A model generated the notes under the pieces. It saw only the letters and a list, made by a program, of their open reading frames with translations, searched no databases and was not told the origin of the DNA. This document shows positions 7,628 to 23,053 of a DNA stretch of 64,000 bases, piece by piece. Source of the stretch: Methylophilus sp. 13 (GTDB lineage Bacteria; Pseudomonadota; Gammaproteobacteria; Burkholderiales; Methylophilaceae); the NCBI RefSeq assembly GCF_015354335.1, contig NZ_JADKYR010000003.1, positions 310,001 through 374,000 on the forward strand, in the 5' to 3' direction. Numbering within the stretch: the stretch's first letter is position 1; every line of letters starts with the position of its first letter. The position numbers and the translations under genes are program-made.

Positions 7628-8818
7628 TTACTCGATGATTTTGGCAACGACGCCAGCACCAACGGTACGACCACCTTCACGAATCGCGAAGCGCAGACCA
7701 TCTTCCATCGCGATAGGCGCGATCAATGTCACAGTGATAGATACGTTATCACCTGGCATCACCATTTCGGTACCTGCTGGCAATTCAACTGCACCAGTCA
7801 CGTCAGTGGTACGGAAGTAGAACTGTGGACGGTAGCCGTTGAAGAATGGTGTATGACGACCACCTTCATCTTTACCCAACACGTAGATCTCAGCGGTGAA
7901 CTTGGTGTGTGGTTTGATAGAACCGGATTTAGCCAGCACTTGACCACGCTCAACTTCTTCACGCTTGGTACCGCGCAGCAGTACGCCTACGTTGTCACCC
8001 GCTTGACCTTGGTCCAGCAGTTTACGGAACATTTCAACACCAGTACAGGTGGTTTTCAAGGTTGGCTTCAGACCAACGATTTCGATTTCGTCACCGACTT
8101 TAACGATACCACGCTCAACACGGCCGGTTACTACAGTACCACGACCAGAGATAGAGAATACGTCTTCTACTGGCATCAGGAAGGTACCGTCAATGGCACG
8201 CTCTGGGGTTGGGATGTAGCTGTCCAATGCGTCAGCCAATGCGAAGATCGCTGGTTCGCCGATTTCTGATTGGTCGCCTTCAAGGGCCAATTTAGCAGAA
8301 CCTTTGATGATTGGGGTGTCATCACCTGGGAAGTCATACTTGCTCAGCAAGTCACGCACTTCCATTTCAACCAGTTCCAACAACTCAGCGTCGTCAACCA
8401 TGTCGGCTTTGTTCAGGAATACAACGATGTATGGTACGCCAACCTGACGGGCCAACAGGATGTGCTCACGTGTTTGTGGCATAGGGCCGTCAGCTGCTGA
8501 ACATACCAGGATCGCGCCGTCCATCTGGGCAGCACCGGTAATCATGTTTTTAACGTAGTCAGCGTGGCCTGGGCAGTCAACGTGTGCGTAGTGACGGCTT
8601 GCAGTCTCGTACTCAACGTGTGCTGTGTTGATGGTAATACCACGTGCTTTTTCTTCTGGTGCCGCGTCAATTTGGTCGTAAGCTTTTGCTTCGCCACCAA
8701 ATTTCTTGGTCAACACTGTGGTGATCGCCGCTGTCAATGTTGTCTTACCGTGGTCAACGTGACCAATCGTACCAACGTTCACGTGTGGCTTGGTACGTTC
8801 AAATTTGCCTTTTGCCAT
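7628..8818 (-). CDS. tuf: Elongation factor Tu
   Basis: EF-Tu, 396 residues, delivers aminoacyl-tRNA to the ribosome. GTPase motifs are present: GHVDHGKT near residue 18, DCPGH near 80 and NKAD near 136, followed by the two beta-barrel domains ending in [10 protein letters not shown]. It lies downstream of four tRNA genes, the same arrangement as enterobacterial thrU-tyrU-glyT-thrT-tufB. A second tuf copy near the str operon is usual in this group but cannot be seen here. Confidence 0.98.
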
Positions 8819-20144: not shown

Positions 20145-20735
20145 CTATAACGCACCTTTGGTTGATGGCATCAAGCCGGCCATGCGAGGATCCTGGGTGG
20201 CCGCCATACGCAAGGCACGGCCAAACGCTTTAAAAATCGTTTCCGCCTGGTGATGAGCGTTTTGGCCTTTGAGATTATCAATGTGCAGCGTGACCAGTGC
20301 ATGATTGACAAAGCCCTGGAAAAATTCGTGAATCAGATCTACATCAAACTCACCGATCATGGCACGCGTAAAGGTGCAATCAAACGCCAAGCCCGGACGA
20401 CCGGACAAGTCCAGCGCCACACGGCTCAAGGCTTCATCCAGCGGGACATAGCTATGCCCGTAGCGCGTCAAGCCTTTTTTGTCGCCCAACGCCTTGCTGA
20501 ATGCCTGACCCAAGGTGATCCCGATATCTTCAACCGTATGGTGGGCATCAATATGCAAATCGCCTTTGGCATGCACTTTCAGGTCTATCATGCCATGACG
20601 GGCGATTTGATCCAGCATGTGATCCAAAAAGCCCAGCCCACTGTCCAGTTCAGACTGCCCTGTACCATCGAGATTAATCGACACAGTAATTTGGGTTTCT
20701 AGCGTATTACGCGTAACTTCGGCTTGACGTGACAT
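20145..20735 (-). CDS. hisB: Imidazoleglycerol-phosphate dehydratase
   Basis: Monofunctional dehydratase, 196 residues from [16 protein letters not shown]; it lacks the phosphatase half found in enterobacterial HisB. Two repeats carry the manganese ligands ([24 protein letters not shown] and the later [17 protein letters not shown]). A longer GTG start at 20756 is possible. No clear ribosome site precedes either start. Upstream is the hps terminator, so hisB must have its own promoter in 20757-20827 or depend on readthrough. Confidence 0.95.
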
Positions 20736-20827
20736 ATGAGAGAGGAAGGTGATCACTGAGAGTTTGCAAGTATTATACGCATTTTACAGCAAGTCTTGGC
20801 AGACAGGCAAAACCAGTTGTGAAAAAC

Positions 20828-20856
20828 AAAAAAGCAGCCCAATGGACTGCTTTTTT
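20828..20856 (-). terminator. Terminator after hps
   Basis: AAAAAAGCAG (20828-20837) pairs with CTGCTTTTTT (20847-20856); with inner pairs the minus-strand stem is GCAGTCC/GGGCTGC around ATT, then T6. It separates hps from hisB. Confidence 0.88.
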
Positions 20857-20887
20857 GAATCGTGCATTTATCAGAAATAAAAGCGGA

Positions 20888-21772
20888 TTATTTTGCTTCT
20901 TCAGTCGCTGGTGCAGCTTCTGCAGCAGGCGCTTCAGCGGCTGGAGCAGCTTCTTCAGCAGCAGGTGCTTCGGCAGCAGGCGCCTCAGCAGCTGGGGCAG
21001 CCTCTTCAGCAGCTGGTGCTTCTGCAGCAGGCGCAGCTTCTTCAGATTTTTTACCCAACAAAGAGAATACCAATACTGCAGCAACTGCAGCAATAATCCA
21101 TGGCAGCAACTTGTTACCACCTTTAGCAGCACCAGCACCAGCACCGTGTGCAATTTTGGTGATTTCTGTTGCAGCAGCAGCAGGATCAGCAGCACCGTAG
21201 ATCGCTGCACCAGCAACGACGATATCAGCACCAGCGTCAACCACTTGTTTAGTCGTTGCAGCTTTTACACCACCAGCCACAGACACTTTAGCGCCTGTTT
21301 TCAGACCGGACACCAGGCCCAAGTCAGCGAATGGGGTTTGACCAGCCGCTTGTTGATCCAAGCCAGTGTGCACGCCGATGATGTGTGCACCCAACTTAAC
21401 AACTTCCAGCGTACGGGCTTTTTTGTCTTTTACGTTGATCAGGTCGATTTGCGCTTCTTTGCCATATTTGTTGGCAGCATCAATCACGCCTTTGATGGTA
21501 CCGATGTCAGCAGTGCCCAAAACGGTACAAATGTCAGCACCTGCTTTGTAGAATGGCTCAGCTTCGTAGAAGCCAGCATCCATGGTTTTCAGGTCAACCA
21601 AAATTTTGTTGTTAGGGAATTTTGCACGCAGTGCTTTCAACAGTTCGATACCGTTGTGCTTGATGCAAGGGGTACCGATTTCCAAGATATCAACGTGTGG
21701 CGCCACTTTAGCTGCTAAAGCGATCGTCGCGTCAAAATCCAATGAGTCCAATGCCATCTGGGTTTGTGCCAT
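20888..21772 (-). CDS. hps: 3-hexulose-6-phosphate synthase with membrane segment and repeat tail
   Basis: Condenses formaldehyde with ribulose 5-phosphate, the key carbon-fixing step of the ribulose monophosphate cycle. Residues 1-209 are a complete orotate-decarboxylase-superfamily barrel (EIGTPCIKHNG, LVDLKTMDAGFYE, GVHTGLDQQ, VAGGVK, VVAGAAIYG). The usual enzyme ends near 207-211. Here it continues for about 85 residues: a Gly/Ala linker (209-220), a hydrophobic segment at 222-240 (LLPWIIAAVAAVLVFSLLG) flanked by lysines, then a Glu/Ala/Pro tail (243-294) built from the unit EEAAPAAEAPAA. The frame is uninterrupted and starts after GGAGGAAG. It sits between hisC and hisB but has its own promoter (21872-21901) and terminator. 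The reaction is certain from the family; membrane attachment and the role of the tail are inferred. Confidence 0.95.
   Translation of the reverse strand: MAQTQMALDSLDFDATIALAAKVAPHVDILEIGTPCIKHNGIELLKALRAKFPNNKILVDLKTMDAGFYEAEPFYKAGADICTVLGTADIGTIKGVIDAANKYGKEAQIDLINVKDKKARTLEVVKLGAHIIGVHTGLDQQAAGQTPFADLGLVSGLKTGAKVSVAGGVKAATTKQVVDAGADIVVAGAAIYGAADPAAAATEITKIAHGAGAGAAKGGNKLLPWIIAAVAAVLVFSLLGKKSEEAAPAAEAPAAEEAAPAAEAPAAEAPAAEEAAPAAEAPAAEAAPATEEAK
20903..21043 (-). repeat. In-frame tandem repeats coding the hps tail
   Basis: Three imperfect copies of a roughly 36-base unit encode EEAAPAAEAPAA, the second and third copies lengthened by extra residues. The repetition is clear at DNA level (gcagctggagcagcttcttc-like blocks) and makes the tail length liable to change by slippage. 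Confidence 0.85.
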
Positions 21773-21871
21773 TTTTCTTCCTCCGAGTTTGCTCTATTTT
21801 CAATCCAATGAATCTATGCGCAGCAATCATGCAAACGCAACCGTCACTGCACATTATGTACAATAGGGTGC

Positions 21872-21901
21872 ATCATAACCGGATTTGCCACACAATGACA
21901 A
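21872..21901 (-). promoter_or_regulatory. Probable hps promoter
   Basis: Minus strand TTGTCA (21901-21896), 18-base spacer, TATGAT (21877-21872). It would give a leader of about 95 bases before the hps start. A TGCAC/GTGCA inverted repeat lies just downstream and could be an operator, but I recognise no specific regulator. Confidence 0.6.
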
Positions 21902-21988: not shown

Positions 21989-23053
21989 TCAGGCTTGCAC
22001 AAGCGCACGTATTGCCTGCATCAAGGCCTGATTTTGCGACTCGTTACCGATGGTAATCCGTAAAAAATCGGAAATTCTAGCTGGTTTTTTGAAATGGCGG
22101 ACGATCACGGCGCGTTCACGCAGCCCTGCGGCCAACTGCTCACCCACATACGCCGGGTGACGGGTAAAAATAAAGTTTGCCCCGGAAGGCAACACTTCAA
22201 ATCCCAACGCTTCTAGTGCACTGACCAGGCTGGTACGCGACGTGATGACCTGTTGACGCGTTTGCTGAAAGTAAGCTTCATCCTGCAATGCCGCAATGGC
22301 ACCCGCCTCGGCAAAACGATCAATCGGATATGAGTTAAAGCTGTCCTTGACCCGGATTAATGCCTCAATCAACGCGGCATTGCCCAACGCATAGCCCACG
22401 CGCAAGCCTGCTAACGAACGTGATTTCGAGTAGGTATGCGTCACCAGCAGATTTGGGTAACGATGAATCAGTGCGACCGCGGACTCGGTGCCAAAGTCAA
22501 CATAGGCCTCATCGACCACCACCACAGATTGCGTATTGTGGGCCAGCAAGCGCTCAATTTCGCTTAATGGCAGCGGAATGCCGGTTGGCGCGTTGGGGTT
22601 AGGGAAAATAATCCCGCCATTAGGGCGCAAATAATCGTCTATCGCCACTTCAAACTGCGCATTGAGCGCAACGGTTTCAAAGTGGATGCCGTACAAGCCG
22701 CAGTAGACCGGATAGAAACTGTAACTAATATCAGGAAACAACAAAGGCAAGTCGTGCTTGAGCAAGGCCTGAAACACGTGCGCTAACACCTCATCGGAAC
22801 CGTTGCCGACAAACACCTGATTGGCTTGCAGCCCATGATATTCAGCCAACGCCGCCTTGAGGCGACTGGAATCCGGATCGGGATACAGGCGCAAACTGTC
22901 TGCAGCTTCTGCCTCCAAGGCAGCAATCACCTTGGGGCTGGGACCATAAGGATTTTCATTGGTATTAAGCTTGACCAGATTTTGCAACTTGGGCTGTTCG
23001 CCCGGCACATAAGGGGTCAACTCATGAACAATCTTGCTCCAATATTGACTCAT
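21989..23053 (-). CDS. hisC: Histidinol-phosphate aminotransferase
   Basis: PLP-dependent fold-type I transaminase, 354 residues, converting imidazole acetol phosphate to histidinol phosphate. Motifs: [11 protein letters not shown] near the N-terminus, [10 protein letters not shown], and the PLP lysine in [19 protein letters not shown]. It starts 9 bases after hisD. Downstream, the 216-base gap before hps contains the hps promoter. Confidence 0.96.

Follow-up and report, generated by a model that had tools for sequence, protein, structure and literature searches.

The window, as the whole stretch of 64,000 nucleotides from Methylophilus sp. 13 is called here, carries on its minus strand (20888..21772) a gene open from ATG to TAA for a hexulose-phosphate synthase (Hps) of 294 amino acids that is predicted to be membrane-anchored. 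This gene sits singly between hisC and hisB, also on the minus strand, the upstream neighbour HisC (21989..23053) and the downstream neighbour HisB (20145..20756) serving as markers of a conserved position, referred to below as the histidine slot. The same genome encodes a second Hps (L003) of 210 amino acids, without any extension, in a tal-hps-phi cluster. Further along the minus strand of the window, a gene identified by eye as that of EF-Tu (7628-8818) adjoins a tRNA cluster. In at least 20 loci of the family, the contig stops about 11-13 kb downstream of hps, roughly the distance of the EF-Tu gene, a pattern that breaks in the assemblies at duplicated tuf genes would produce.

The window hps is preceded by a promoter-like site, TTGTCA-18-TATGAT (21872..21901, minus strand), and by a ribosome-binding site, GGAGGAAG (21777..21784, minus strand), and an intrinsic terminator made of a 14-pair stem and a T run lies directly 3' of it (20827..20857, minus strand). 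As a consensus match the promoter-like site is weak (2 found versus 1.5 expected in shuffles), its conservation being the stronger evidence; terminator-type sites are likewise close to expectation (2 found versus 1.8 expected). In an alignment of 15 close Methylophilus genomes, five of which are displayed, all three signals are conserved, and the terminator stem is kept through paired changes in some of these five relatives. The codon bias of the window hps (Nc 33.8) resembles that of the soluble hps (34.2), the values of nine neighbouring genes being 43.1-52.5. Its own conserved signals and its codon bias make the window hps a probable single-gene unit with strong expression, and not a passenger carried by the histidine operon.

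The C-terminal extension of the window protein

The first 209 residues (21146..21772, minus strand) form a (beta/alpha)8 barrel, delimited with Pfam/NCBIfam, AlphaFold2 and Foldseek. The Pfam OMPdecase/HUMPS match covers residues 5-204 (E 4e-40), the NCBIfam model TIGR03128 (RuMP_HxlA) covers residues 5-207 with 246.8 bits for a cut-off of 200, and the best Foldseek matches of the barrel model, 3f4w and 3ajx, are both Hps structures. The closest named matches are the proteins of Methylophilus sp. 42 and QUAN (97 and 96% identity). The HxlAB fusion model remains below its cut-off (294.6 versus 500 bits) and matches the Hps part only (4-212); as no C-terminal Phi domain is present, the protein is not an Hps-Phi fusion. 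The motif D-x-K-x-x-D, an active-site motif of Hps, reads DLKTMD in the window protein and is found in all 105 anchored copies of the survey described below, two soluble rows failing the same check. The pattern H-x-G-L/F-D, a second active-site signature, is present in 49/55 amphipathic, 50/50 transmembrane and 133/140 soluble copies. The window enzyme is probably active as an Hps.

Beyond the barrel, the frame encodes a Gly/Ala/Lys linker of 12 residues (210-221, 21110..21145, minus strand) distinguished by pLDDT and dN/dS, a predicted transmembrane helix (222-240, 21053..21109, minus strand) delimited by hydropathy, AlphaFold2 and dN/dS, and an acidic Ala/Pro/Glu tail (241-294, 20891..21052, minus strand) that pLDDT and charge predict to be disordered and periplasmic. 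Of all 19-residue windows in the extension, precisely 222-240 (LLPWIIAAVAAVLVFSLLG) scores best, with a mean Kyte-Doolittle hydropathy of 2.47 and a Hessa-2005 insertion energy of -0.65 summed over these residues. AlphaFold2, supplied with 19 sequences of the family (16 transmembrane-type and 3 amphipathic-type), predicts a barrel that begins at residue 3 and closes with helix 197-208, then a helix standing apart (222-239) and a tail without structure; the mean pLDDT is 78, falling to about 70 in the 222-239 region and to less than 50 in residues 214-219 and most of the tail. As the barrel starts at residue 3, there is no room for a signal peptide, and hydropathy and AlphaFold2 agree on a single predicted transmembrane helix.

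These results match a preliminary description of this DNA in several respects. It had considered the barrel complete by residue 209, as Pfam, TIGR03128 and AlphaFold2 all indicate, and had placed at 222-240 the hydrophobic segment that hydropathy now selects as the best window and AlphaFold2 models as a lone helix. It had also stated that Hps proteins usually end near residue 210, which is true of L003 and of the loci read from two other families, Hps-Phi-like fusions excepted. The acidic Ala/Pro/Glu character that it ascribed to the tail stands, but the length has to be corrected from 52 to 54 residues, as the earlier count started two residues later.

A short protein encoded on another contig of this genome (L192:1393-1704, contig C10) carries the lipobox-like sequence LTAC, followed almost exclusively by a repeat of the EAPAAEAPAA type that ends in EEAK and closely resembles the Hps tail in style. 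This suggests that sequences of this type may be exported in this genome, although the likeness between low-complexity sequences may be convergent.

An annotation or frame artefact, in which a stop near codon 210 would have been lost by sequencing error or recent fusion, could in principle produce such an extension. In 105 pairwise comparisons of the 15 close Methylophilus genomes (which include two of one species with an identical protein), the helix shows 0 non-synonymous differences (dN/dS 0), while 38% of its synonymous sites differ. The helix is therefore under purifying selection in these genomes, and a frame error is excluded, since the amino acids of the helix remain unchanged despite this synonymous divergence. 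The same architecture is moreover open in 50 histidine-slot genes belonging to 5 genera, so that the probability left to an artefact is negligible. Among the same 15 genomes, dN/dS is 0.010 for the barrel, 0.15 for the linker, 0.03 for the first 12 residues past the helix and 0.13 for the tail from residue 253. When all 21 genomes of the genus are taken, the value for the helix rises to 0.147 versus 0.039 for the barrel; at larger distances the sequence of the helix thus changes while its character stays.

Gene positions and anchor types in Methylophilaceae

Hps genes from 150 evenly drawn genomes of Methylophilaceae were sorted by their neighbours and by their C-terminus, transmembrane-type proteins being recognised by a tail length of more than 45 residues and then by a hydropathy check. 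Every Hps gene of the histidine slot encodes an anchor (101/101), either a transmembrane helix with an acidic tail behind it (50 genes, 5 genera) or an amphipathic helix (51 genes); as the genomes are related, these 101 genes represent far fewer than 101 independent events. None of the 140 rows of the tal/phi slot is anchored, their proteins ending 0-3 residues past the barrel; these soluble rows include one G011 barrel counted twice (L180, which is cut short, and L411) and one G028 barrel without a start. Four additional amphipathic copies, one from genus g9, two from g12 and one from g19, have neither his nor tal/phi neighbours in view. The preliminary description had called for an alignment across the family and other methylotrophs to see how widespread the extension is: an anchor of one type or the other is general in the histidine slot of the family, the transmembrane extension being carried by half of the genes. 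The order hisG-D-C-hps-B-H-A-F-I-E is whole in 14 of 16 histidine-slot loci (12-18 kb each), the remaining two showing one side only (L338 the downstream side, L340 from g3 the upstream side).

Outside the small-genome genera g14 and g16, an anchored copy is present in 104 of 111 genomes, and such copies occur in 21 genera. It was not found in G125, where hisC was likewise not found, nor in G008 and G028 of g9, which have a soluble copy only, nor in G064 and G082, which have Hps fragments only, nor in G100 and G024, which gave no match at E 1e-30. The 39 genomes of g14 and g16 include none with an anchored Hps and 32 with a soluble copy, and hisC and hisB are directly adjacent in all seven small-genome genomes checked. 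Altogether 11 of the 150 genomes lack an Hps row (G024, G064, G082, G100 and seven small-genome ones); since frames of less than 150 amino acids were not counted, contig-edge fragments were dropped from these figures (e.g. G003, G058, G028). One small-genome member of g14, G013, gives no match to the formaldehyde-activating enzyme (Fae), against two or three matches in each of four relatives with larger genomes. In five loci (L319, L320, L323, L324 and L325, from G018, G031, G026, G005 and G039, respectively), the tal/phi slot contains two adjacent Hps genes of different lineages, the first being that usual in Methylophilaceae and the second methanotroph-like.

Among the 50 proteins of the transmembrane type, Kyte-Doolittle values for the best window in the extension are 1.67-2.66 (median 2.16). 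Soluble Hps copies reach 1.98 inside the barrel and overlap the weakest helix (1.67), so that hydropathy alone does not decide every case. The charges follow the positive-inside pattern: the 15 residues preceding the helix carry a net charge of at least +1 in 49/50 and of 0 in one, and the net charge after the helix is -4 to -21 in all 50; yet one or two Lys/Arg occur within the first 8 residues after the helix in 39/50. The part following the helix comprises 31-110 residues (at least 37 in 49/50) and drifts in sequence, length and repeat pattern, some genomes having hardly any Pro there or none. Tail-anchored proteins of N-in, C-out orientation resemble the window protein in having one helix near the C-terminus with positive charge before and negative charge after it. 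In a strict tail-anchored protein, however, the helix lies within about 30 residues of the C-terminus, a distance exceeded both by the window Hps (54 residues) and by its class.

The amphipathic anchor is a C-terminal helix of 10-11 residues (e.g. LFGWLKKLFS). Its eight commonest forms have hydrophobic moments of 0.67-0.75, versus 0.61-0.68 for the end of E. coli MinD (taken from NC_000913), and shuffles of the two forms tested reach the observed moment in about 2% of cases. A search of 20 genomes for DNA encoding the amphipathic-end motif, which missed the ends in G018, G021 and G031, gave 16 places: 13 are Hps by position and three are one-mismatch places in frames of 7, 36 and 73 codons, the reversed control pattern also giving three places. 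Like these ends, the membrane-targeting sequence of MinD is an amphipathic helix at the C-terminus, about 10 residues long, in which a Lys pair is usual, and two of the 55 amphipathic copies even have a MinD-like end, -LFGG. The likeness of the predicted Hps helices to MinD spans only a few residues, and convergence is its probable cause. It also concerns the histidine-slot Hps of other genera, whereas the window protein has a transmembrane helix, and Hps has no ATP switch. MinD itself may be absent or very divergent in six genomes of the family (G000, G069, G002, G005, G062 and G027), where none was found at E <=1e-60, the E. coli control being positive.

Both types of anchor may occur within one genus, as in g7 (16 genomes of the amphipathic type and 7 of the transmembrane type), and one genome, of g21, has both in tandem in its histidine slot. 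Judged from sequence, the two anchors are interchangeable for one slot.

The barrels do not follow the slots in a simple way. In 14 of 16 genera, the histidine-slot barrel is closest to the histidine-slot barrel of another genus, as plain inheritance would give, although this closeness is biased upward because it is a maximum over 15 genera. The two exceptions are g3, where this barrel is 95.9% identical to the soluble barrel encoded in its own genome versus 90.8% to histidine-slot barrels of other genera, and g6 (91.8% versus 67.6%). The histidine slot of g6 is occupied by a divergent methanotroph-like barrel with an amphipathic end (62-64% identity to the window barrel, two read); similar methanotroph-like barrels with amphipathic ends are those of g12 and g19 (67% in two) that lack his or tal/phi neighbours in view. 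A FastTree phylogeny of the barrels (midpoint root), several nodes of which are weakly supported, mixes soluble and anchored copies by genus. In G016, the two hps genes have near-identical DNA over much of their first half, suggesting exchange between these copies, and no clear gene-conversion breakpoint was found at the anchor in this pair. The anchor stays with the slot despite the barrel pattern of g3 and g6 and the apparent exchange in G016, and we regard this association as the strongest sign that the anchor, and not just the enzyme, is under selection in the histidine slot.

Membrane attachment and its possible purpose

Attachment of the histidine-slot copy to the inner membrane, with a division of labour between the two Hps copies, is predicted, and we hold it to be likely. 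This suggests that part of formaldehyde fixation takes place at the cell membrane, and the anchoring at the inner membrane put forward in the preliminary description is well supported by the gene comparison (101/101) and the helix prediction, and more broadly than that description could show. The histidine-slot copy would be held on the cytosolic face, either by a single transmembrane helix with an acidic tail outside or by an amphipathic helix in the inner leaflet, and the tal-hps-phi copy would be soluble. Ribulose 5-phosphate, with which Hps combines the toxic formaldehyde, is cytosolic. A cytosolic barrel with a periplasmic tail fits the charge pattern, and this topology is favoured because the substrate is cytosolic, there is no room for a signal peptide, the charges place the tail outside and the alternative anchor belongs to the inner leaflet.

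Dimers are known in the Hps family; if this applies here, the two weak amphipathic helices of a dimer would together bind the membrane, as in MinD. The membrane-targeting helix of MinD is described as weak, its binding to the membrane needing two or more copies (PMC6803595).

It might be argued that the hydrophobic segment is not inserted at all and serves the self-assembly, the stability or the degradation of a soluble enzyme. The localisation is a prediction and some segments have a modest hydropathy, but other genera fill this slot with proteins ending in a MinD-like amphipathic helix, and the charges on the two sides of the transmembrane helix are asymmetric; both observations point to the membrane, which makes a soluble role very unlikely.

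What the anchor is for is harder to decide. Methanol and methylamine dehydrogenases make formaldehyde in the periplasm, and the preliminary description had seen a benefit in placing Hps next to the periplasmic methanol dehydrogenase. Under this explanation, the anchor keeps the enzyme near these dehydrogenases, where it would trap entering formaldehyde at once; well-supported membrane attachment, the periplasmic origin of formaldehyde and the likely high expression of the gene are in its favour. A diffusion model with first-order kinetics, no membrane resistance and assumed values of D, kcat/Km, enzyme level and cell radius (0.25-0.4 micrometre) indicates, however, that placing all of the enzyme at the wall would lower formaldehyde there by 0-4%, and by at most 0.4% in 10 of the 12 model rows listed, all of them for D = 500 square micrometres per second. 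Because the benefit is so small for a small molecule, nearness is a poor reason for an anchor, and the small-genome relatives do without an anchored copy altogether (0/39). Capture by proximity is thus considered unlikely, and the benefit originally envisaged is weakened, within the assumed parameters.

The tail offers another possible purpose, namely docking to a protein of the periplasm, for instance methanol dehydrogenase or the cytochrome of that enzyme. The net negative charge of all 50 transmembrane-type tails is compatible with this, as is the lipoprotein-like protein of the same genome described above, since exported proteins may carry such tails. Nevertheless, 51 of the 101 genes of the same slot have no tail, and the tails drift in sequence and repeat pattern, Pro being scarce or absent in some genomes, so that docking appears quite unlikely. 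The linkers of dehydrogenase E2 proteins are rich in Ala and Pro and lie between folded domains. The Hps tail shares their Ala/Pro richness and probably their flexibility, but it is terminal, strongly acidic, situated after a membrane helix, unstructured in AlphaFold2 and followed by no lipoyl or other domain; an E2-type linker was therefore rejected. The drift of the tail, its terminal position and its absence from half of the slot leave the earlier proposal of a docking arm or E2-like linker less credible than before.

The small benefit found by diffusion makes us lean instead towards contact within an assembly. The anchor would bring the first step of the RuMP pathway into a membrane-associated assembly that takes formaldehyde from membrane partners, or protects them, by direct contact and not by mere nearness, a purpose that we advance tentatively. 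Concerning the tail, a fairly stable length, a drifting sequence and a negative charge suggest a spacer: its 31-110 residues would let the helix leave the ribosome before translation ends, and its acidity would keep it outside. This role, conceivable for the transmembrane form although we would not give it even chances, does not make the tail a general requirement, as half of the slot orthologues lack one. The whole can be pictured as two separate entry points into the RuMP pathway, one soluble and one at the inner membrane, with an ancient function bound to the histidine slot, a contact assembly and a spacer tail; the membrane entry point would have kept its address while swapping its anchor chemistry and, in one genus, its whole barrel. 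This picture is a possible one in which our confidence stays below one half, and its weak point is the purpose of the anchor, since the diffusion estimate removes the obvious benefit.

Published systems and other families

Natural methylotrophs may place Hps on purpose, which has a bearing on formaldehyde in engineered methanol-using strains, where this compound is a source of trouble. With two anchors in one slot, the switching of bacteria between integral and peripheral attachment to the membrane can also be studied as a natural experiment. The Hps of Methylococcus capsulatus has reportedly been described as membrane-associated.

The soluble Hps (HxlA, TIGR03128; 3ajx, 3f4w) and the window protein have in common the barrel fold, the active-site motif and a score above the family cut-off, but the latter differs by its C-terminal anchor and by standing alone in a histidine cluster instead of beside phi or tal. 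Two locations of hps in Methylophilaceae are already in print: the histidine cluster for one copy and, for the other, the H4MPT cluster, where its neighbours are HPI and transaldolase. The section on these genes is silent on C-terminal extensions, membrane anchors and different roles (PMC4109929). Among the matches listed from the open-licence literature on Hps and RuMP, no description of a membrane anchor on Hps was found. The same matches offered no explanation for the presence of two hps genes in the RuMP methylotrophs of Methylophilaceae, a question that a fixed split between soluble and membrane copies would make directly testable.

Outside Methylophilaceae, one methanotroph-like family gave Hps matches in 39 of 41 genomes, and a further family in 28 of 29. 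No membrane anchor was found in 30 Hps loci from each of these two families, the proteins stopping a few residues past the barrel at most or continuing as Hps-Phi-like fusions. The methanotroph fusions also carry a C-terminal addition, but it comprises about 180 residues and looks Phi-like by eye (seven fusions). Only six of 369 genomes sampled across the class, including that of the window, have an Hps above the family cut-off. Two records titled uncultured Truepera (L068) and Thermoplasmatota (L069) contain Hps sequences with 75 and 60% identity to the window protein, respectively, and contamination or mis-naming is likely in both.
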